This document shows positions 31,040-39,959 of a stretch of DNA of 39,959 nt, piece by piece (the first letter of the stretch is position 1; each line of letters opens with the position of its first letter). The DNA is from Bacteroidales bacterium. GTDB lineage: Bacteria; Bacteroidota; Bacteroidia; Bacteroidales; UBA10428. The translations under genes were made by a program, and so were the position numbers. The DNA is taken from the NCBI GenBank assembly GCA_016938235.1, contig JAFGVA010000236.1, forward strand, positions 1 through 39,959, read 5' to 3'. The notes under the pieces were generated by a model. It was not told the origin of the DNA and searched no databases. It saw nothing but the letters and a program-made list of their open reading frames with translations.

Positions 31040-32347
31040 TTACTCTTCAAAATAATCCTCAGGATTTACCCTTTCCCCGTTTTTCAGCACTTCGTAATGT
31101 AAATGCGGTCCGGTAGACAGGCCTGAGCTGCCTACAAGGCCGATTACATCGCCTTGTGAAACTTTATCACCTGTATTCACCTTGAATTCCTTAAGGTGGG
31201 AATAAAATGTTGTATAAACATCATCATGCTCAATTACAATTAAATTTCCATGCCCCTTTTTAAATTCAGCATTAAGAACTGTTCCTGAAGCTGTTGCAAT
31301 TATTGGCGTACCCTCTTTTGCTGCCAGATCAACTGCATTATGCATAATTTGCTTCTTGCTTATTGGATCAATTCGCATTCCAAAACCTGATGTAATTTTA
31401 TATTCACCCTTTATCGGAACAATATCCGGTGGATCTGAAAAAGTAGTTTTATCGATTTTTACTTCTTCGGTTAAAGATAATCCGGAGAAACTCATTGCCA
31501 GCAAGGCAATTAAGGGAACTACCAAAATGTAGATCCAGCAAACTTTTTTATGTGTTTTATTTTTTGTGATCATAATAATTCGTTTTTTCATGGTTCGCCA
31601 ATAAAAATGACTTGCAATACCAGCATAAACCGATCGGCCGGCAACCTCTGCCATAAATCTCAAATAATCGGATTTTATAACTCCCTGTTTGAGAACAGAT
31701 AAATCGGCCAGGTATTCGTGGTTTTGCATTAATGCTCGTTTAAAAAGAAAGACAAAAGGATTGAACCAGTTGAATACAAAGAATAATTCAACTAAAATGA
31801 TGTCTATTGAATGTAATTGCCTGGCATGTGCATACTCGTGTTTAAGCACCGCTAAAAATGAACTCTTTTGAATTTCTTCTTCGGGTATAAAAATCCACTT
31901 GTAAAAAGTAAATGGAGTTTTAACCTGTTTCCCGGTATAAAAGAAGATTCTGTTCTTAATACTACCTGAGCAATTTCTAAGAAGCTTTTGTATCGAAAAA
32001 ACACTCCGGATAAATCTCACCGCAAATGCCAGTGTTACAATTATATATAGAAACTTCAATAGTTTAGCCCAACTAAATTGCGAATAAGAAGAAAGCTCAT
32101 TTTGAGTACCTGCTAACTCCGGATTGTATTCAGGAATAAATCCATAATAAAAATCAGCATGTATGGGTATCAAATATTCTTTAAAAGAAATGTGAATAAA
32201 AGGTATAACCGCAGAAAAAATAAAAGCAGAAAGTAAATACAAGCGGTTTAGCCTGTAAAAGCTTGTACGCTGAAACAACAATACATATATAAGATACAGG
32301 ATAGCTAAAGCTGCACCCGACTTAATAAAATATATGCCAGGATTCAT
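31040..32347 (-). CDS. M56 (BlaR1-like) membrane peptidase fused to an M23 endopeptidase domain
   Basis: A 435-aa fusion. The N-terminal half has TM segments (about 7-25, 37-52, 97-115), then the M56 zinc site HEYAH (170-174) with HEYLAD (210-215), and a TM at about 270-290. The C-terminal third (about 311-432) is an M23/LytM domain with ligands His336 and Asp340 (HNAVD), His384 (YSHL) and His415/His417 (GPHLHYE). M56 proteins sense beta-lactams or envelope stress and cut a BlaI-type repressor. M23 domains cut peptide crosslinks in peptidoglycan and here should face the periplasm. The gene overlaps the upstream BlaI gene by 4 bases. Confidence 0.85.
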   Translation of the reverse strand: MNPGIYFIKSGAALAILYLIYVLLFQRTSFYRLNRLYLLSAFIFSAVIPFIHISFKEYLIPIHADFYYGFIPEYNPELAGTQNELSSYSQFSWAKLLKFLYIIVTLAFAVRFIRSVFSIQKLLRNCSGSIKNRIFFYTGKQVKTPFTFYKWIFIPEEEIQKSSFLAVLKHEYAHARQLHSIDIILVELFFVFNWFNPFVFLFKRALMQNHEYLADLSVLKQGVIKSDYLRFMAEVAGRSVYAGIASHFYWRTMKKRIIMITKNKTHKKVCWIYILVVPLIALLAMSFSGLSLTEEVKIDKTTFSDPPDIVPIKGEYKITSGFGMRIDPISKKQIMHNAVDLAAKEGTPIIATASGTVLNAEFKKGHGNLIVIEHDDVYTTFYSHLKEFKVNTGDKVSQGDVIGLVGSSGLSTGPHLHYEVLKNGERVNPEDYFEE

Positions 32348-32727
32348 TTGTCCTTCTTTTTTAATTCATCAATTTCTTTATCGATCTGTTTTTTTATCGC
32401 CTCTAATTGGGTAAGACTCATTTGATTGCTGTTAGCAAAAAACGAAGCAAATTTTGCTACAGAACCATTAAAGAAATTTTTAATTAGTCCATTAAAGTGT
32501 GTGTTAAAATAGTGTTCCTTTTCAATTAGCGGATAATACTCATGAACCTTGCCATAAGTATTATGTGCGATAAAGCCTTTTTTTACCAGAACTCTTATAA
32601 CGGTAGAGATGGTAGTGTAGGCAGGTCGTGGTTCGGGAAACTGTTCAACAATGTCTTTTAAGTAGCCCTTCCCTATCGACCAGAGGTTTTGCATTACTTG
32701 TTCTTCTGCTTTTGTCAATTCTTTCAT
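32344..32727 (-). CDS. BlaI/MecI/CopY-family repressor
   Basis: A 127-aa winged-helix repressor (LTKAEEQVMQNLW, PAYTTISTVIRVLVKKGFIAH) with a C-terminal dimerisation helix. In this family the repressor is inactivated by proteolysis triggered by the M56 partner, which follows with a 4-base overlap. It has no CopY-type C-terminal metal cysteines. A -7 box TATATTTG (32739-32732, minus strand) ends only 4 bases before its ATG, so the transcript may be nearly leaderless. Confidence 0.92.
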   Translation of the reverse strand: MKELTKAEEQVMQNLWSIGKGYLKDIVEQFPEPRPAYTTISTVIRVLVKKGFIAHNTYGKVHEYYPLIEKEHYFNTHFNGLIKNFFNGSVAKFASFFANSNQMSLTQLEAIKKQIDKEIDELKKKDK

Positions 32728-32938: not shown

Positions 32939-33021
32939 AAAAAAAATGCCCCGAAGATAGTCGAGGCAGCTAAATGTTTTCACAACGGAATAATCCTTAT
33001 TGTGAATTGCTTCAATTTGTA
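32939..33021 (-). ncRNA. tracrRNA of the type II-C CRISPR-Cas9 system
   Basis: Read leftward, divergent from cas9. The anti-repeat (33021 to 32999) matches the repeat at the window end over ATTTGTA (7 bp) and TTGTGAATTGCTT (13 bp), with CA versus TCG as a bulge between. It continues with AAGGATTATTCCGTTGTG and ends in a terminator hairpin (32947-32968, including one G-U pair) plus eight U (32946-32939). On the minus strand TTTTG (33056-33052) and TATATTG (33032-33026), 19 bases apart, would start transcription near 33020, just where pairing to the repeat begins. Length about 83 nt. Ends are predicted. Confidence 0.85.
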
Positions 33022-33060
33022 ATTGCAATATATCGAAAACTCTACAATAAACAAAACATT

Positions 33061-36000
33061 ATGAAAAAGATATTAGGACTGGATTTAGGAACAAACTCTA
33101 TTGGATGGAGTCTCATTGAACATGATTTTGATAAAAAGGAAGGTAAAATTCTGGGAATGGGGAGTCGCATAATTCCGATGAGTAAAGATATAATGGACAA
33201 GTTTGGTTCAGGCCAGAGTCACTCTCAAACAGCAGAACGTACTGATTATCGTGGAACTCGTCGTCTTTATCAAAGAGATAATTTAAGGAGAGAACGTTTA
33301 CATAGGGTTTTAAATGTTTTAGGTTTTTTGCCTGGGCATTACGTTGATTCAATAGACTTTGAAAACAGACTTGGGCAATTTTACAATAATAGAGAGGTTA
33401 AACTAAACTATAAGCCATTTGAAAGTAATGGGAACCTAGCTTTTGAATTTCTTTTTAAGGATAGTTTTCTTGATATGGTTTCTGAGTTTAAGGAAAAGCA
33501 CCCTGAGTTATTCCACCAAAAAGAAAATGGCGAAGAAGCTAAAATACCTTATGATTGGACAATTTATTATTTGCGAAAAAAAGCTTTAACCGAAAAAATT
33601 ACTGAACAAGAGCTTGCCTGGATTATTCTAAATTTTAATCAAAAGCGAGGCTATTATCAATTGCGAGGCGAAGAAGAGGAAACTGATAATACTAAATCTG
33701 AAGAATTTTATTCTTTGAGAGTATATGACGTAGAAGAAACAGAGGATAAAAATGCTAATGGGACATGGCATAATGTAATCTTGGAAAATGGTTGGATATA
33801 TAGAAGACAAAGCAAAGAATCACTTAAAAGTTGGAACGGAAAGATAAAGGAATTTATTATTACAACCCAATTAGATGAGAATGGTAATCCGAAAGTTGAT
33901 AAAGAAGGTGATGTGAAAAGAAGTTTTAGGGCAGTCGATTCTGAAAAAGATTGGATTGCAATAAAAAAGAAAACAGAACAAGATATAGGTAAGTCAGAAA
34001 AAACTGTTGGATTTTACATCTACGAATCTCTCCTAAAAAGCCCCAAACAAAAAATAAGAGGAAAGCTCGTTAAGACAATTGAACGTAAGTTTTATAAACA
34101 AGAATTGAATAAAATACTTGAGGTTCAAACTAAATTTCATGATAAACTGAAAGACAAAGACCTATATAGAGCTTGCGTTGAAGAACTATATCCAAGAAAT
34201 GAAGCACATCAGCAAAGTATTATCGATAAAGGTTTTGTATACTTATTCCTGAATGATATAATATTTTATCAGCGACCGTTGAAAAGTCAGAAATCAAATA
34301 TCGCTGGCTGTACATATGAAACACGGACATTTAAAAAAGATGTTGATGGCAAAAAGGAAATTGTAACCGAAGCAATAAAAGCGATACCAAAATCACACCC
34401 TTTATTTCAGGAGTTCAGGTTGTGGCAGTTTCTGCAAAATCTAAAAATTTATCAAAAAGAAGCTCTTATTGATGGTAAAACCCAGATAGATTATAATGTA
34501 ACTGATACAATGCTTGCAAATGAAGATGACTGGATTGCAATATTCGATTATTTAAATACAAGAAAGGAAGTTGAACAAAAGCATATTATAGAGCATCTTG
34601 TAAAACAAGGAAAGATTACTAAAAAAGAAAAAGATAATTACAGATGGAATTATGTAGAAGATAAAACTTACCCGGCAAATACAACAAAAGCACAATTTGT
34701 TTCCCGTTTAAAGAAAGTTGAAGGTGTAAATGCTGATGAAATACTAACCGATGATTTTCAGCAAGCCTTGTGGCATATTATTTATTCTATAACGGATAAG
34801 GCAGAGTTTGAAAAGGCATTAAAGAAATTTGCAGAAAAGAATTGCTTAGATGTTAATTCATTTTTTGAGGCATTTCAGAAATTTCCACCTTTTGATAGTG
34901 AATACGGAGCATATTCTTTAAAAGCATTAAAGAAACTTCTTCCGGTAATGAGAAGAGGAAAATACTGGAACGAACATGATATCTCAGAAGAAGTCATCCG
35001 AAAGGCAGAATCAATTCGGGAACGTTTAGATGCTGTCGGTTTTCAAAAAACAAAAATTGACGAAACTGTCAGTGATGATGAAGTACAAAAACAAGTTTTA
35101 CGGAGTTTTGCAGATTTTTCCGGTAAAAATATGGTGCAGGGGTTAAATACCTATCAAGCATGTTATTTGGTATATGGAAGGCATTCCGAAGCTGTAGATA
35201 CTACAAAATGGGAAATACCTGATAATATTGATGCTTATTTACAAAAGTTTAAACAACATAGTTTGCGAAATCCAATAGTAGAGCAAGTTGTAACAGAAAC
35301 CCTGCGAGTAGTTCGTGATATTTGGCAATATTATGGAAACGGTGATAAGAATTTCTTTAAAGAAATTCATATTGAATTGGGTCGCGAAATGAAAAATCCG
35401 GCAGATAAAAGAAAGCAAATTGCTGCCCGACAACAAGAAAACGAAAATACAAACCAGCGTATTAAACAAATTTTAACTGAGTTGATGAATGATTCTGCCG
35501 TAGAAGGTGATGTTCGACCACATTCCCCAAGTCATCAGGAAGTTTTAAAAATTTATGAAGAGGGTATATATCAAAATCCAAATGCTGATTATAAAAAAGT
35601 AAATCAGGATGAAATTGAAAAAATTCGCAAAACAGCAAAACCTTCAGCAAAGGACATTACCCGTTATAAACTTTGGCTTGAACAAGGCTATCGCTCACCA
35701 TATACAGGAGAAATGATTTCGCTTGGCAAACTGTTCACAACCGCATACCAAATAGAACATATTATTCCTCAAGCCCGCTATTTTGATGATTCGCTCAGCA
35801 ATAAAATTATTTGTGAGAGTGAAGTGAATCAACTAAAAAGCAATATGACCGCCTATGAATTTATTAAAGATAAAGGAGGCAGTGTTGTTGATTTGCAGCA
35901 AGGTAAAACAGTTAAGATATTTGATTTATCAACCTATGAAGAAAATTGCAATCAATATTTTAAGAAGAATAAAACGAAGTTGAAAAAACTTTTGTCGGAA

Positions 36001-37686
36001 GATATACCGGAAGGTTTTATTGAACGCCAAATGAATGATAGCCGGTATATAAGTAAGTTGATAAAAGGCTTATTAAGTAACATCGTAAAAGACGACGATG
36101 AGCAGGCCGCTACCTCAAAATATGTTGTGCCTGTTACAGGAGCTATTACCGATAAATTAAAACAAGATTGGGGTTTACACGATAAATGGAACGAAATAGT
36201 TGCACCTCGTTTTATTAGAATGAATGAAATAACGAAATCTCAGGATTATGGCTATTTTGATGATACAATTACTGCGTTTCGAATTACTGTTCCTGATGAA
36301 TTGCAAAGAGGCTTCAATAAAAAACGTATCGACCACCGGCATCATGCAATGGATGCTTTGGTTATTGCATGTGCAGACCGGAGGCATATACAATATTTAA
36401 ATGCATTAAATAATGAAAAGGAGAATTTTGCTTTAAGAGATTCATTATTATTAAAGAATAAAAATGATCATTACACCAAAACATTTCAGATGCCCTGGCA
36501 TAATTTCCCGAACAAAGCAAAAGATGCTTTAGAAAAAACAGTAGTTAGTTTTAAACAAAACCTAAGGGTGATTAACAAAACAACAAATAAAACATGGCAA
36601 TGGATTGAAAAAGATGGAAAGCTAAAAAAACAACTTGTTAAACAAACTAGGGGCGATAGTTGGGCAATCAGGAAACCTATGCATAAAGATACAGTATCGG
36701 GTAGGGTTAATATAAGAATTCGAAATACCGTTTCTTTTGCCAACGGAATAAAAAATTGGAAAAACCTTGTTGATAAAAATTTAAAATCCATTATTAATGA
36801 GTTAATTGACGAGGGAAAGGATACGAAAGCAATTGCTAACCATTTTAAGGACTACCCTTACCTGATAAATGGGGACCCAGTTAAACAGGTTGAAATTTAT
36901 ACTTATACTGCAAATGCTACTGCTACAAAAACAATGTTGACAGAAAACTTTACAAGAAAACAACTGGAAAGTGTTACAGATAGTGGTATTAAGAAAATTC
37001 TGGAAAATCACATTAAGAACTATATTGATGAAAAGGGAAATGAAAGATTCGATATAGCTTTTTGTACCGATGGTATTGCTGCATTAAATGAAAATATTGA
37101 AGAACTAAATAATGGAAAAAAACATCAACCAGTTTATAGTGTACGATTATATGAAGAAGGTAATAAGTTTAATGTTGGATATTCTGGAAATAAAGCAAGT
37201 AAGTTTGTTGAAGCAGCAAAAGGCACCAATCTTTTCTTTGCAATATATTGGAACGAAGAAAAACAAAAACGGGAATATGAAACTATCCCGTTAAATGTAA
37301 TTATTGAACACCAAAAACAAGTGGCTCATTTACCTAAAGAAGAGCGAACACCTGTTCCATTAAACAATGAAAAAGGCTTATTTTTATTTTCATTGTCGCC
37401 TAATAATTTGGTTTATGTGCCAACCGTAGAGGAAATAGAGAATCCTTCATTATTCAAACAAAATTCATTAACAGATGAACATTTGAAACATATTTATAAA
37501 ACTGTTAGTAGCAGTGGGACTCAATGCTTTTTTGTTCAATGCTGTGTTGCTGATACTTTAGCAAATAAAATAGAATTTTCCGCATTAAACAAAATGGAAA
37601 AGTCAATCGATGACATAATGATAAAAGATGTTTGCTGGAAACTTGAAGTAGACCGCATAGGAAATATTACAAAGGTAATTCGCTAA
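33061..37686 (+). CDS. cas9: CRISPR-associated endonuclease Cas9, type II-C
   Basis: A 1541-aa RNA-guided double-strand DNA nuclease. I start it at the ATG at 33061. The frame is open back to 32974, but that extension lies inside the tracrRNA gene, and MKKILGLDLGTNSIGWS is the normal Cas9 N-terminus. RuvC-I has Asp8; an Arg-rich bridge helix follows (RGTRRLYQRDNLRRERLHR). RuvC-II has Glu772 (EIHIELGRE). The HNH domain (YRSPYTG...YQIEHIIPQARYFDDSLSNK) has His900. RuvC-III has His1095 and Asp1098 (HRHHAMDALVIA). All catalytic residues are present. It is long for II-C, as in other Bacteroidota, with inserts in the REC lobe. The absence of csn2 or cas4 in view supports II-C. It is AT-rich compared with cas1. 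Confidence 0.96.
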   Translation: MKKILGLDLGTNSIGWSLIEHDFDKKEGKILGMGSRIIPMSKDIMDKFGSGQSHSQTAERTDYRGTRRLYQRDNLRRERLHRVLNVLGFLPGHYVDSIDFENRLGQFYNNREVKLNYKPFESNGNLAFEFLFKDSFLDMVSEFKEKHPELFHQKENGEEAKIPYDWTIYYLRKKALTEKITEQELAWIILNFNQKRGYYQLRGEEEETDNTKSEEFYSLRVYDVEETEDKNANGTWHNVILENGWIYRRQSKESLKSWNGKIKEFIITTQLDENGNPKVDKEGDVKRSFRAVDSEKDWIAIKKKTEQDIGKSEKTVGFYIYESLLKSPKQKIRGKLVKTIERKFYKQELNKILEVQTKFHDKLKDKDLYRACVEELYPRNEAHQQSIIDKGFVYLFLNDIIFYQRPLKSQKSNIAGCTYETRTFKKDVDGKKEIVTEAIKAIPKSHPLFQEFRLWQFLQNLKIYQKEALIDGKTQIDYNVTDTMLANEDDWIAIFDYLNTRKEVEQKHIIEHLVKQGKITKKEKDNYRWNYVEDKTYPANTTKAQFVSRLKKVEGVNADEILTDDFQQALWHIIYSITDKAEFEKALKKFAEKNCLDVNSFFEAFQKFPPFDSEYGAYSLKALKKLLPVMRRGKYWNEHDISEEVIRKAESIRERLDAVGFQKTKIDETVSDDEVQKQVLRSFADFSGKNMVQGLNTYQACYLVYGRHSEAVDTTKWEIPDNIDAYLQKFKQHSLRNPIVEQVVTETLRVVRDIWQYYGNGDKNFFKEIHIELGREMKNPADKRKQIAARQQENENTNQRIKQILTELMNDSAVEGDVRPHSPSHQEVLKIYEEGIYQNPNADYKKVNQDEIEKIRKTAKPSAKDITRYKLWLEQGYRSPYTGEMISLGKLFTTAYQIEHIIPQARYFDDSLSNKIICESEVNQLKSNMTAYEFIKDKGGSVVDLQQGKTVKIFDLSTYEENCNQYFKKNKTKLKKLLSEDIPEGFIERQMNDSRYISKLIKGLLSNIVKDDDEQAATSKYVVPVTGAITDKLKQDWGLHDKWNEIVAPRFIRMNEITKSQDYGYFDDTITAFRITVPDELQRGFNKKRIDHRHHAMDALVIACADRRHIQYLNALNNEKENFALRDSLLLKNKNDHYTKTFQMPWHNFPNKAKDALEKTVVSFKQNLRVINKTTNKTWQWIEKDGKLKKQLVKQTRGDSWAIRKPMHKDTVSGRVNIRIRNTVSFANGIKNWKNLVDKNLKSIINELIDEGKDTKAIANHFKDYPYLINGDPVKQVEIYTYTANATATKTMLTENFTRKQLESVTDSGIKKILENHIKNYIDEKGNERFDIAFCTDGIAALNENIEELNNGKKHQPVYSVRLYEEGNKFNVGYSGNKASKFVEAAKGTNLFFAIYWNEEKQKREYETIPLNVIIEHQKQVAHLPKEERTPVPLNNEKGLFLFSLSPNNLVYVPTVEEIENPSLFKQNSLTDEHLKHIYKTVSSSGTQCFFVQCCVADTLANKIEFSALNKMEKSIDDIMIKDVCWKLEVDRIGNITKVIR

Positions 37687-37690
37687 AAAC

Positions 37691-37741
37691 TATTCACCAG
37701 AGCTACTATGAGTTGCCCGGTGAATAAAACTCCAAACTCAT
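37691..37741. repeat. Overlapping inverted repeats between cas9 and the RAYT gene
   Basis: TATTCACC (37691-37698) pairs with GGTGAATA (37719-37726), starting 4 bases after the cas9 stop. A second pair, ATGAGTT (37708-37714) and AACTCAT (37735-37741), overlaps the RAYT start codon. The two pairings interlock, so only one can form at a time. This could be a REP-like end of the inserted gene, a weak terminator, or a fold that controls RAYT translation. Confidence 0.45.
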
Positions 37742-38441
37742 GCATTTCGAAAAAGAACATGTATACCATATTTACAACCAGGGCAATAACCGGCAGGAAA
37801 TATTTTTCAAGCGGGAAAATTACTTGTTTTTTCTCAGAAAAGTTCGGGCACATATGCTCCCCTATTGCGATGTTTTTGCCTGGTGCCTTATGCCAAATCA
37901 TTTTCACTTTTTGGTTCGGGTTAACGAGGTGGAACTGACTGTACGGGAAGCAAGCCAGGCTGTTACTCTGAGACCGGCAACGATTCAGGGTGTGACTCAA
38001 ACGGTAGCGAGTCTGGGCATGACTCAAAAACCGGTAGCGAGTCAGGGCGTGACTCAAAGTCACACCCTGACTAAGAAGAAGCTGCGCACATTCAACGACT
38101 CAATAGGCATTTTGCTACGTTCATACACCCGGGCAATTAACAAACAAGAAGGTACAACCGGCAGTTTATTCAGAAACGAAACCAAAGCAAGTTGTTTAAG
38201 CTGCCCTGAAGTGACCGTTCCGGAATTTCTCAGGCATTCCGGGCAAAAAGGCCCATATATATACGATAGCTCAAAAGAATACCTGAACGTATGTTTCAAT
38301 TACATACATCAGAATCCGGTTAACGCAGGATTGGTTAACAAACCTGCCGACTGGGAGTTTTCATCGGCACAAGATTACGCCATGCTCAGAAATGGCTCAC
38401 TAATAAACAAGAAACTGTCAAAAGAATATGAGATAACCTGA
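37740..38441 (+). CDS. REP-associated tyrosine transposase (RAYT, Y1/HUH family)
   Basis: A 233-aa single-strand DNA transposase of the IS200/IS605 TnpA superfamily, RAYT branch. It has HYHIYNQGNNRQEIFF-type start motifs, the HUH metal site MPNHFHFLV (His54, His56), a likely catalytic Tyr129 in LLRSYTRAINK, then GSLFRNETKA and NYIHQNPVNAGLV. The sites look intact. Residues about 78-111 between the HUH and Tyr motifs are a three-fold repeat (VASxGxTQ) encoded by DNA repeats at 37974-38060. It lies between cas9 and cas1, same strand, 53 bp after cas9 and 52 bp before cas1. It may be an insertion or a domesticated passenger; no role in CRISPR immunity is shown. Confidence 0.87.
   Translation: MHFEKEHVYHIYNQGNNRQEIFFKRENYLFFLRKVRAHMLPYCDVFAWCLMPNHFHFLVRVNEVELTVREASQAVTLRPATIQGVTQTVASLGMTQKPVASQGVTQSHTLTKKKLRTFNDSIGILLRSYTRAINKQEGTTGSLFRNETKASCLSCPEVTVPEFLRHSGQKGPYIYDSSKEYLNVCFNYIHQNPVNAGLVNKPADWEFSSAQDYAMLRNGSLINKKLSKEYEIT
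37974..38072 (+). repeat. In-frame tandem repeats ending in a hairpin inside the RAYT gene
   Basis: Three imperfect 28-30 bp units (37974-38001, 38002-38030, 38031-38060) share the pattern CCGGTAGCGAGTCAGGG followed by YRTGACTCAAA. Together they total 87 bp (29 codons), so the frame is kept. The third runs into a hairpin: AGTCAGGGCGTGACT (38040-38054) and AGTCACACCCTGACT (38058-38072), 14/15 complementary with loop CAA. The DNA resembles a REP sequence lying inside the gene of a REP-processing enzyme. Confidence 0.8.
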
Positions 38442-38493
38442 TAAACCAACCAGGCAGTGTTCTGTACAGAAAGTAATTATAAATAATTCAGCT

Positions 38494-39384
38494 ATGATAA
38501 AAAGAACATTGTTTTTCGGAAATCCCTGTTACCTAAAAAAGAAACAGGAGCAAATGACAATTGAGTATAAAGATACAGAAACCAAATCGGTACCTATTGA
38601 AGATATTGGTGTGGTTGTGCTTGATAATCAGCAAATAACACTCACCACGGCCCTGCTAATGGCTCTTATGGAAAACAATGCAGCAGTTATTACAAGTAAC
38701 TGGCAGCACCTGCCCGAAGGCTTATTGCTGCCCATGGCCGAACACCATGCATTTACCGAAAAAGTGCGTAGCCAGTTCGAAGCATCGGAACCCTTAAGAA
38801 AAAACCTGTGGCAACAAACCGTTCAGGCAAAAATAACAAACCAGGCAAACCTGCTTGATTCCATTGGTATACCTTCAGAGAATATGCATTATTGGGCCTC
38901 TCAGGTAAAATCGGGCGACCCCGATAATTACGAAGCCCGGGCCGCTGCATATTACTGGCAGCATTTATTTGCAGATAACCGGGTTTTCAGGCGCGGAAGA
39001 TTTGAAGCTCCCCCAAACAACCTGCTAAATTATGGCTATGCCATACTGCGTGGTGTAATAGCACGTAACCTGGTAGCCAGCGGATTAATGACATTCAGGG
39101 GCATTCATCACAAAAATAAATACAACCCGTATTGCCTGGCCGACGATATTATGGAACCCTACCGGCCCTATACCGACAAAATTGTTCTCGAAATATTAGC
39201 AGATACTGTTGAAATAGAGGAGTTAACAACCGATTTAAAAAGGCGCTTACTTATTATACCGGCTACCGATATAAACATCGATGGCCAAAACAGCCCTTTA
39301 ATGGTTGGGGCAGGGCGTACCACAGCTTCGCTAATACAATGCTACGAAGGCGTAATGCGTAAACTAGTTTACCCTGTGCTTTGA
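38494..39384 (+). CDS. cas1: CRISPR integrase subunit Cas1, type II-C
   Basis: A 296-aa Cas1, which with Cas2 inserts new spacers into the array. It has an N-terminal beta domain (1-80) and a C-terminal helical catalytic domain. Candidate metal ligands are Glu147 (NYEARAAAYYW), His205 (FRGIHHKNKYNP) and Glu221 (LADDIMEPYRP). Its length is normal for type II. It should share a transcript with cas2, which starts 33 bp downstream, and perhaps with cas9 through the RAYT gene. Sampled lines run near 50% GC, against roughly 30-37% in cas9. Confidence 0.96.
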   Translation: MIKRTLFFGNPCYLKKKQEQMTIEYKDTETKSVPIEDIGVVVLDNQQITLTTALLMALMENNAAVITSNWQHLPEGLLLPMAEHHAFTEKVRSQFEASEPLRKNLWQQTVQAKITNQANLLDSIGIPSENMHYWASQVKSGDPDNYEARAAAYYWQHLFADNRVFRRGRFEAPPNNLLNYGYAILRGVIARNLVASGLMTFRGIHHKNKYNPYCLADDIMEPYRPYTDKIVLEILADTVEIEELTTDLKRRLLIIPATDINIDGQNSPLMVGAGRTTASLIQCYEGVMRKLVYPVL

Positions 39385-39417
39385 AAGAGCAAATAAAAAC
39401 AGGAAATTTTCTCCTTT

Positions 39418-39759
39418 ATGAAAAACCTGGAGCGATTAAACCAATACCGAATTATGTGGGTGTTTGTTTTTTTTGATTTACCTACCGACACAAAAAAGGA
39501 AAGACGTGCTTATACACGCTTCAGAAAAATGCTTATTAACGATGGTTTTAGCATGTTGCAGTTCTCGATTTATATAAGGCATTGCAACAGCCGCGAAAAT
39601 GCCGATGTACATATAAAGCGGGTAAAAGTATCGCTGCCCGAACATGGCGAGGTAATACTGTTTACACTCACCGACAAACAATTCGGCATGCTCGAAATAT
39701 TTAAAAGCGCTGCCGAAGTAAAAAAACCCGAAACACCCCAGCAACTTGAATTATTTTAA
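39418..39759 (+). CDS. cas2: CRISPR-associated protein Cas2
   Basis: A 113-aa Cas2 with a ferredoxin-like fold. It starts with beta strand [10 protein letters not shown], carrying the conserved Asp20, followed by the helix with [11 protein letters not shown] and the strand-rich IYIRHC segment. It bridges two Cas1 dimers in spacer integration. The C-terminal tail [11 protein letters not shown] is typical of type II Cas2. It is the last cas gene, ending about 150 bp before the CRISPR repeat. Confidence 0.96.
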
Positions 39760-39764
39760 TAGTG

Positions 39765-39789
39765 AGCGGGTGACTTCGAGCCACTCGCT
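39765..39789. other. Hairpin downstream of cas2
   Basis: AGCGGGTG (39765-39772) and CACTCGCT (39782-39789) are inverted arms with one mismatch, 5 bp after the cas2 stop. The GTGACT and ACTCGCT words resemble those in the RAYT internal repeats, so this may be a related REP-like palindrome. Confidence 0.4.
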
Positions 39790-39809
39790 GAGACTTCCCA
39801 TCCAAAACC

Positions 39810-39844
39810 AAAAAAGCACCGGGAAAAACTCCCCGATGCTTTTT
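39810..39844. terminator. Bidirectional terminator between cas2 and the CRISPR array
   Basis: AAAAAAGCACCGGG pairs with CCCGATGCTTTTT across a short A/C loop, with one mismatch on this strand that becomes a G-U pair in the opposite transcript. A- and T-runs on both sides suit ending both the rightward cas operon and a leftward crRNA transcript. Confidence 0.75.
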
Positions 39845-39911
39845 ACCGACACAGTTTTTTTATCCTGTTTTCAGACACAAAAAGCTGAATCACTGAACGA
39901 TACTTTGCACT

Positions 39912-39959
39912 CTGCTGTGTCAAAGATCGTTAAAATACAAATCGAAAGCAATTCACAAC
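39912..39959 (-). CRISPR. First visible CRISPR repeat (array continues beyond the window)
   Basis: Read on the minus strand from the last base, the sequence starts GTTGTGAATTGCTTTCGATT and runs to about 39912, with CTTTG and ACACAGC near its 3' end. Size (about 46-48 nt) and the GTTGTG start fit type II-C repeats of Bacteroidota. Pairing with the tracrRNA anti-repeat at 32999-33021 supports it. Only one copy is in view, so the exact 3' edge is uncertain and no spacer can be defined. This copy would be the cas2-proximal, terminal repeat of a leftward-read array. Confidence 0.75.

Follow-up and report, generated by a model that had tools for sequence, protein, structure and literature searches.

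The last 7 kb of contig JAFGVA010000236.1, from a Bacteroidales bacterium, hold in succession an anti-repeat of clustered regularly interspaced short palindromic repeats (CRISPR), cas9, a gene for a repetitive extragenic palindrome (REP)-associated tyrosine transposase (RAYT, also TnpA_REP), cas1, cas2, and a CRISPR repeat, with all genes on the plus strand. The window, that is, the whole stretch of DNA analysed, is one entire contig (G000:C126, 39,959 bp) from a draft genome of 5.2 Mb and ends inside the repeat. Between cas9 and cas2, the RAYT is the sole extra gene-sized frame besides cas1, and it lies 53 bp from the cas9 stop and 52 bp from the cas1 ATG. RAYTs were found to recur at this place in other genomes, and the best reading is that REP-RAYT units, interchangeable with one another, have settled next to cas1 time and again and possibly serve adaptation.

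Gene content of the locus

The gene content agrees with that of a type II-C system; as for csn2 and cas4, which such operons lack, the stretch from cas9 to cas2 leaves no other gene-sized frame, and the contig ends in the array. Profile searches locate HNH, RuvC III, and the bridge helix in cas9, which is followed by a cas1 of the type II kind and by cas2, while the array, in which the contig ends, and the tracrRNA are represented by the single terminal repeat and the anti-repeat. The latter aligns with the terminal repeat at a local score of 37, against a maximum of 36 and a mean of 20.8 in 300 shuffles. The gene order, strand, and both gaps reported in a first-pass annotation of the letters were borne out by the open reading frames (ORFs) and profiles; its cas9 start was not. 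Because the anti-repeat lies in the stretch before 33061, this position is the most likely start, in preference to the upstream ATG at 32974.

The embedded gene, already called a RAYT in that annotation, is one as judged by motifs and predicted fold, and its catalytic motifs appear to have been kept. The HUH motif (N53-H54-F55-H56) and the tyrosine (Y188) are invariant across 22 aligned rows of subfamily A, and among the cas-linked rows, the HxH is present in 35/35 and the catalytic tyrosine in 34/35. The protein falls under the curated cut-offs, with 16.3 against 23 bits for Y1_Tnp (PF01797) and 53.2 against 80 bits for NF047646 (REP_Tyr_transpos), the latter being its best profile match (E 2.8e-14). 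In the predicted model, which has a mean pLDDT of 80 and in which 119 of the 233 residues reach at least 90, a low-confidence linker comprising residues 78–83 and 86–109 lies between the HUH core and the tyrosine helix, and it is this linker that carries the in-frame repeat units and REP. The best Foldseek match of the model, and the only one at E < 0.001, is the RAYT-REP structure 4er8 (E 1.5e-5, TMq 0.43, rmsd 7.4), which was also the only match in a sequence search of the PDB (E 4.7e-4). The DH[VI]H and Y[IV]ENQ motifs of IS200/IS605 subclass 1.1 are not found in the window RAYT, which has NHFH and YIHQNP. Elsewhere in the same genome, a contig end truncates a second RAYT, of which a part with 45% identity across 71 residues is present (L004, on G000:C129).

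Table 1. Features at the end of the window (positions are those of the window).
Feature	Position	Strand	Basis
CRISPR anti-repeat before cas9, within a putative tracrRNA gene	33000..33024	-	local match to terminal repeat
cas9, 1541 aa, type II-C-like	33061..37686	+	RuvC_III, HNH_4, Cas9-BH; TIGR01865, E 7.2e-123
Degenerate REP-like hairpin in cas9-RAYT spacer, arms ATTCACC/GGTGAAT	37692..37725	+	DNA fold z -5.28
RAYT (TnpA_REP-like HUH/Y1 gene), 233 aa, H54xH56 and Tyr188	37740..38441	+	motifs, profiles, predicted fold
Three in-frame repeat units in RAYT linker, GVTQ/GMTQ peptides	37972..38058	+	start-to-start 27 and 30 nt
In-frame REP inside RAYT	38040..38072	+	14-nt arms, loop TCAAA, one central mismatch, fold z -6.34
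cas1, type II kind	38494..39384	+	TIGR03639, E 4.1e-87
cas2	39418..39759	+	profile search
Weak degenerate REP-like hairpin between cas2 and CRISPR repeat, loop TTCGA	39765..39789	+	fold z only -0.85
CRISPR repeat at contig end	about 39914..39959		aligns with array repeat of L186, common end GAAAGCAATTCACAAC

Upstream of the locus, at 31040–32727 on the minus strand, two ORFs resemble, by reading only, a BlaI-type repressor and an M56/M23 peptidase-like sensor.

Occurrence beside type II cas1

In a draw of 392 genomes from the window's order, type II cas1 was matched 146 times in 140 genomes. The annotated set of 141 loci comprises 140 of these matches together with the locus from G003, which belongs to the window's family; six matches lie outside the set (G091:C183, G222, G040, G025, and two of G278), and 13 short loci were left out as duplicates of longer ones. 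A RAYT was found by profile within 2.5 kb upstream of cas1 and on the same strand in 34 loci, spread over 23 family codes. Two further loci bring to 36/141 those in which a RAYT precedes cas1 on the cas strand: L168, where the RAYT lies farther upstream inside a 3.4-kb gap, and L171, where a third kind of RAYT (MPNHIH...YIQQNP) stands between cas9 and cas1 and another of the main kind stands upstream of cas9. Beyond the RAYT, cas9 is visible in 35 of these loci (L150 being the exception); in the whole set, cas9 was not seen upstream in eight. As L171 shows, the profile used in the order scan misses other kinds of RAYT, of which at least three occupy the slot next to cas1. The same profile search found no opposite-strand RAYT in any junction of the 141 loci, and it detected three RAYTs or fragments elsewhere in the fetched DNA of about 1.24 Mb (L090, L171, and L176).

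The class was sampled by a draw of 385 genomes, 52 of which gave RAYT matches; type II cas1 was matched 80 times, eight times within the window's order. The RAYT search here used the subfamily-A profile with a cut at E 1e-20; hence, both the count that follows and the zero count for other cas1 types given below are lower bounds. Outside the order, a RAYT lies beside cas1 for at least 12 of 72 type II matches, in ten further family codes, with ten RAYTs directly upstream and two directly downstream of cas1. The RAYT frame next to cas1 was confirmed in all 12 loci, and cas9 sequence was present within the 1.5 kb fetched in ten. One of them, L324, has a RAYT on each side of cas1, and L326 has a second RAYT piece of 84 aa. 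In L324 and L334, a RAYT is placed between cas1 and cas2, and in L330, the contig breaks off within the RAYT, shortly past cas1.

In a collection of named genomes, cas9-RAYT-cas1 was seen in 9 of 80 RAYT loci, some on the same contigs as the order loci; the named strains with this arrangement are Perlabentimonas gracilis M08_MB and Marinilabilia salmonicolor MSL42. The one RAYT locus of a viral collection also shows it: L276 (IMGVR_UViG_3300033553_000531) reads cas9-RAYT-cas1-cas2, and it may be bacterial DNA filed as viral.

Over order and class, the arrangement recurs in 33 family codes, including the one-contig genomes G234 and G331. Because of this recurrence, a RAYT beside cas1 is more than a matter of chance, and the suggestion in the first-pass annotation that the gene deserved testing beyond a chance insertion was well founded. 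A single chance insertion or an assembly artefact might be suspected from the fact that the window is a draft contig, but it is rejected by the number of family codes, the one-contig genomes, and the two named strains, and we discount it almost entirely. The annotation had also proposed that the RAYT would be just an insertion if relatives had empty junctions and if the gene were unique to its strain with REP flanks of its own. Empty junctions and the REP flanks of kin were indeed found, but the arrangement is not unique to the strain.

In the genomes of the class draw, the linkage is confined to one kind of cas1. A cas1 of any type was found in 117 of the 385 class genomes, and those above 120 bits and absent from the type II list were counted as clearly non-type-II, with three weak Cas1 matches left out. 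None of the 54 non-type-II cas1 genes of the class draw (46 of them outside the order) shares a contig with a listed RAYT. The difference is significant outside the order (12/72 type II against 0/46 of other types; Fisher p 0.003) and in the whole class draw with the window included (13/80 against 0/54; Fisher p 0.0016). A role for the RAYT as a partner of cas1 generally is unsupported, given its absence beside other CRISPR types. The window's own genome has a second, non-type-II cas1 (G000:C174:7266-8120) on a contig without a listed RAYT. Among the two nearest genes on each side of 84 free RAYTs, no common neighbour family was found, the largest cluster holding 5 of 284 proteins; ten neighbours of six free RAYTs that lie close to other genes are metabolic, envelope, regulatory, or unassigned. 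In the genomes sampled, the linkage between RAYT and type II cas1 appears to be recurrent, type-specific, and beyond chance, as would be expected of an accessory gene.

The cas9-cas1 junction is usually narrow. In 100 loci without a profile RAYT in which cas9 is seen, the gap is at most 100 bp in 76, and the two genes overlap in 28. In some filled loci, the RAYT takes over this tight spacing: in L128, it starts 3 bp past cas9 and overlaps cas1 by 4 bp, an overlap also present in L140, and it starts 1 bp after cas9 in L141 and 3 bp after it in L112, with similarly tight fits in L323, L328, and L332. No target motif is visible at the junctions on inspection by eye only. RAYT-less junctions host other genes, namely Bro-N (twice, L039 and L105), DUF6155, an AAA ATPase with a 23S-IVP protein, and, twice, a DUF6036/DUF2204 nucleotidyltransferase-like gene with a small upstream ORF (L103 and L163), which could be a toxin-antitoxin arrangement. 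Since Bro-N, nucleotidyltransferase-like, DUF6155, and (in Bacteroides fragilis) RhuM-domain ORFs also use it, the cas9-cas1 junction is an accessory slot, and RAYTs are its commonest guests in this sample. Ten gap proteins were tested against DDE transposase families, and none matched. DDE transposases within cas clusters were described in a 2013 survey (PMC3936711, available portion) as lying about half on the opposite strand and were taken for random insertions.

REP hairpins, turnover, and possible roles

The in-frame palindrome of the window RAYT is 33 nt long, with 14-nt arms and a T...A loop, and is located in the low-confidence linker. Of the 38 cas-linked RAYTs scored, 32 have a palindrome that none of 100 single-letter shuffles equals, as do 23 of 81 free RAYTs; the other four of the 42 cas-linked rows had no motif match and received no score. 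The REPs entering the counts of position and density were picked for pairing, and therefore, covariation of their arms is not independent evidence. With terminator-like forms excluded, the 34 loci with a profile RAYT (RAYT+) have a REP in the cas9-RAYT spacer in 16 cases and in the RAYT-cas1 spacer in 12; the flank of the window's RAYT holds one degenerate upstream copy. A REP lies in frame inside cas1 in 6/34 RAYT+ loci against 1/107 loci without a profile RAYT (RAYT−), in the cas1-cas2 spacer in 6/34 against 0/107, and after cas2 in 10/34 against 0/107, and the gap of RAYT− loci holds one in 3/107. When a looser filter keeps terminator-like hairpins, these are found after cas2 in 13/34 RAYT+ and 15/107 RAYT− loci and, in RAYT− loci, in the gap (7/107) and before cas9 (9/107); most of those in RAYT− loci were taken to be terminators. 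Counting also those inside the RAYT, 33 RAYT+ loci hold 30 REPs per 100 kb, and the 107 RAYT− loci hold 1.0.

This distribution would suit a scheme in which the REP hairpins are the useful part, tuning the ratio of cas9 to cas1-cas2 mRNA or ending transcription before the array, with the RAYT as a carrier only: RAYT+ loci hold REPs in the spacers and after cas2, and in the latter place and the cas1-cas2 spacer RAYT− loci hold none. RAYT− loci, however, seldom keep REPs alone, the RAYT frame and motifs are mostly kept, and the looser filter finds hairpins after cas2 in both groups. We therefore regard this scheme as improbable.

REPs are shown here to lie in frame inside cas1 itself. In four cas1 genes (L121, L127, L136, and L140), the REP occupies nearly the same place, at +372 to +399 from the ATG, which suggests a tolerant Cas1 loop. 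The cas1 of G026 (L171, 3492–4667, minus strand) has repeated in-frame REP-like inserts, encoding VETPYQGVS peptides, near its N terminus.

Outside the cas loci, REPs are scarce in the genome DNA sampled. Those of the defined form number none in 318 kb sampled from the window's own genome, for which a genome-wide REP system is accordingly unsupported, and two in 400 kb of G234 (0.5 per 100 kb). The core REP pattern, with up to one mismatch, occurs at four places in the window's genome; two are in the cas locus, and the other two look, by reading, like coding sequence without arms. A longer pattern adds one further place, with three mismatches. A GT[AG]G foot lies within 12 nt to the left of only 6 of 90 REPs, and canonical GTAG REPs were not found among them. 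Within 100 bp of the RAYT, density reaches 543 REPs per 100 kb around free RAYTs with an in-ORF REP and 322 around cas-linked ones, while at 1–3 and 3–8 kb it is 15.1 and 6.5 per 100 kb in cas loci against 4.3 and 2.1 around free RAYTs. The presence of REPs near both free and cas-linked RAYTs indicates that the REP-RAYT unit is general, with some extra REPs in cas operons.

The history of the unit was followed on quickly built trees with SH-aLRT support only, from which RAYT frames below 100 aa were left out and on which change counts cannot separate gain from loss. Fitting the cas label to the RAYT tree, in which 42 of the 127 rows are cas-linked, takes 23 changes; 500 shuffles required about 35 on average and none as few. 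Starred branches force at least three of the changes, a second subfamily stands apart, and RAYTs from other genome places are interspersed with the cas-linked ones. This scatter bears on an ancestry implied in the first-pass annotation, namely that the RAYT is a relic of the Cas9 ancestor, derived from the TnpA that accompanied IscB. Kinship within the HUH/Y1 superfamily only and the argument of that annotation speak for such descent. The cas-linked RAYTs, however, lie dispersed among free ones in a tree set without IscB-linked TnpA, lack the motifs of subclass 1.1, and come and go on the Cas1 tree, where the window is sister to L016 (support 92) and the two have RAYTs of different subfamilies in the same slot. 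The RAYT tree and the motifs disfavour a relic, which we consider hardly credible.

On the Cas1 tree, the RAYT label is also clustered (36 of 134 rows), with none of 500 shuffles, which averaged 32 changes, as low as the observed count of 19. This count excludes five rows added for bearing a RAYT, and L168 and L171 were relabelled as RAYT+; with the five rows included and these two loci labelled as lacking a RAYT, 20 changes are needed, 13 of them forced by starred branches. One Cas1 clade of 16 (SH-aLRT 100) has a RAYT in 14 members, of two subfamilies. Nearest neighbours are shared between RAYT and Cas1 in 6 of 32 loci, against a permutation mean of 1.0 and maximum of 6. Selection on the RAYT is purifying, with pN/pS of 0.19–0.49 in ten cas-linked pairs.

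A number of observations weigh against a useful unit kept with its operon. RAYT-less loci are the majority: the search of related genomes proposed in the first-pass annotation recovered loci with (36/141) and without the gene (105/141), and outside the order, 60/72 type II cas1 matches had no RAYT at the cut-off used. Of the 19 changes on the Cas1 tree, 12 are forced by starred branches. Patristic distances of RAYT and Cas1 over the 32 loci give a Mantel rho of 0.13, with 355 of 2000 permutations as high; strict cophylogeny is unsupported, the trees agreeing only for close pairs, and stable co-inheritance with the cas genes was not found in these loci. Two II-C loci of G234 differ strongly in Cas1 (dN 0.53) and little in RAYT (dN 0.06), and their flanking REPs differ. 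Purifying selection is similar in six pairs of free RAYTs (pN/pS 0.17–0.30), and in the closest locus pairs, the RAYT is under looser constraint than cas1 (0.30–0.49 against 0.10–0.18). Some copies are altered or damaged: phenylalanine replaces the catalytic tyrosine in L112, an in-frame stop interrupts L109, the frame is in two pieces in L188 and L333, a decayed remnant lies between REPs in L093, and the RAYT of L164 (G234) is broken by an insert that reads like an insertion sequence, by reading only. As far as trees and gene remnants tell, the REP-RAYT unit moves, is replaced, and is lost, yet returns to one place.

Because of this turnover and the weak cophylogeny, selfishness has to be weighed: the unit may be a selfish or commensal one, self-moving and of no benefit to CRISPR, with a strong niche preference for the cas9-cas1 junction. 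Its survival there would follow if co-directional inserts are tolerated at this site and II-C operons pass from one lineage to another, or if the unit has a target preference. The near-identical RAYTs at the diverged loci of G234 agree with this, as do two tandem RAYT units in L186 of the same genome, spaced 701 bp apart and meeting in REPs, the closeness of REPs (within 100 bp) to both free and cas-linked RAYTs, the REPs inside cas1 in RAYT+ loci, and the use of the junction by other genes. The junctions, however, show no target motif by eye, the gap proteins tested included no DDE transposase, and selfishness leaves unexplained why RAYTs are absent beside other cas1 types, why none lies on the opposite strand of a junction, and why they have no common neighbours elsewhere. 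We hold a selfish unit to be distinctly possible, if short of an even chance.

Two findings favour function: the linkage is specific to type II, and no neighbour is common to RAYTs elsewhere. As a useful accessory, the RAYT would be kept since its nicking and rejoining, or its REPs, benefit the type II-C operon, a proposition to which we give a little less than an even chance. The units sit mostly between cas9 and cas1 and sometimes between cas1 and cas2, on the cas strand, and the RAYT would be co-expressed with cas1-cas2. It may bind REP hairpins extruded as single strands in the operon, cut beside them via Tyr188, and rejoin the ends; TnpA_REP is described as cutting at dinucleotides beside REP hairpins, leaving a 5′ phosphotyrosine and a 3′ OH (PMC8266576, available portion). 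The benefit would most plausibly fall to the spacer-acquisition module, and this is the least certain step. In a more specific form, type II-C systems would have taken up an HUH single-strand nuclease repeatedly, and from different RAYT subfamilies, as an accessory for adaptation. By nicking and rejoining hairpin DNA within the operon and leader or close to them, it would then supply Cas1-Cas2 with free 3′ ends or open a site for integration, for which the cas2-leader region is a candidate; we think this form unlikely, though worth entertaining.

Any functional link between RAYT and CRISPR is, as in the first-pass annotation, an inference. Spacer acquisition in type II-C systems is less well understood than in other Cas9 systems. 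An HUH enzyme with kept motifs that stands repeatedly beside cas1, and in the genomes sampled beside that of only this CRISPR type, is a candidate adaptation or regulation factor. Were an adaptation role true, Cas9 systems would have regained a relative of the transposase once associated with their IscB ancestor; were the unit selfish, it would be an unusual mobile unit strongly preferring one junction of an immune operon.

Relation to known systems

Among the titles and abstract openings listed in a literature search, none pointed to a RAYT in a cas operon, and mention in supplements or in a 2018 PNAS survey of CRISPR gene neighbourhoods is possible. The word CRISPR is absent from the available main text of PMC6006769 (Quentin et al. 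2018), in the available portion of PMC8266576 it concerns a dCas9 screen and its reference only, and the main text of PMC10910872 names no RAYT, TnpA, or HUH.

Among the RAYT subclasses set out in the available part of PMC6006769, the window RAYT is like subclass 2.6 in belonging to Bacteroidetes, in its YIH[QN]NP motif, in extra core residues, and in REPs without a GT[AG]G foot. It is unlike that subclass in its HUH motif (NHFH as opposed to NH[LIV]H), in the in-frame REPs of cas-linked RAYTs, and in its linkage to CRISPR; moreover, subclass 2.6 structures are said there to have copies elsewhere in host genomes, whereas almost none occur in the genome DNA sampled here. With subclass 2.4, it shares NH[IFV]H and REPs in frame between HUH and tyrosine, but its tyrosine motif is YIHQNP rather than YIxNNP, and it has no GT[AG]G or double-foot REP. 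In-frame REPs are described in the same source as unique to subclass 2.4, in flexible linkers; an in-ORF REP is, hence, no novelty of the present locus. The REPtron of Escherichia coli, that is, TnpA_REP with its REP hairpin (4er8), provides the best fold and the only PDB sequence match; identity is, however, 12% at TMq 0.43, and REPtron REPs need a GTAG foot (PMC8266576, available portion).

Type II-C loci of B. fragilis resemble the present one in that accessory ORFs occupy the same region of the operon, placed between cas1 and cas9 in the text and between cas2 and cas1 in a figure legend of PMC5704556 (available portion), but these encode hypothetical proteins with a RhuM domain and not RAYTs. 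Compared with type II-C CRISPR-Cas at large, the window has the familiar cas9-cas1-cas2, repeat, and anti-repeat, and it differs in the extra RAYT between cas9 and cas1 and in the REPs of the operon.

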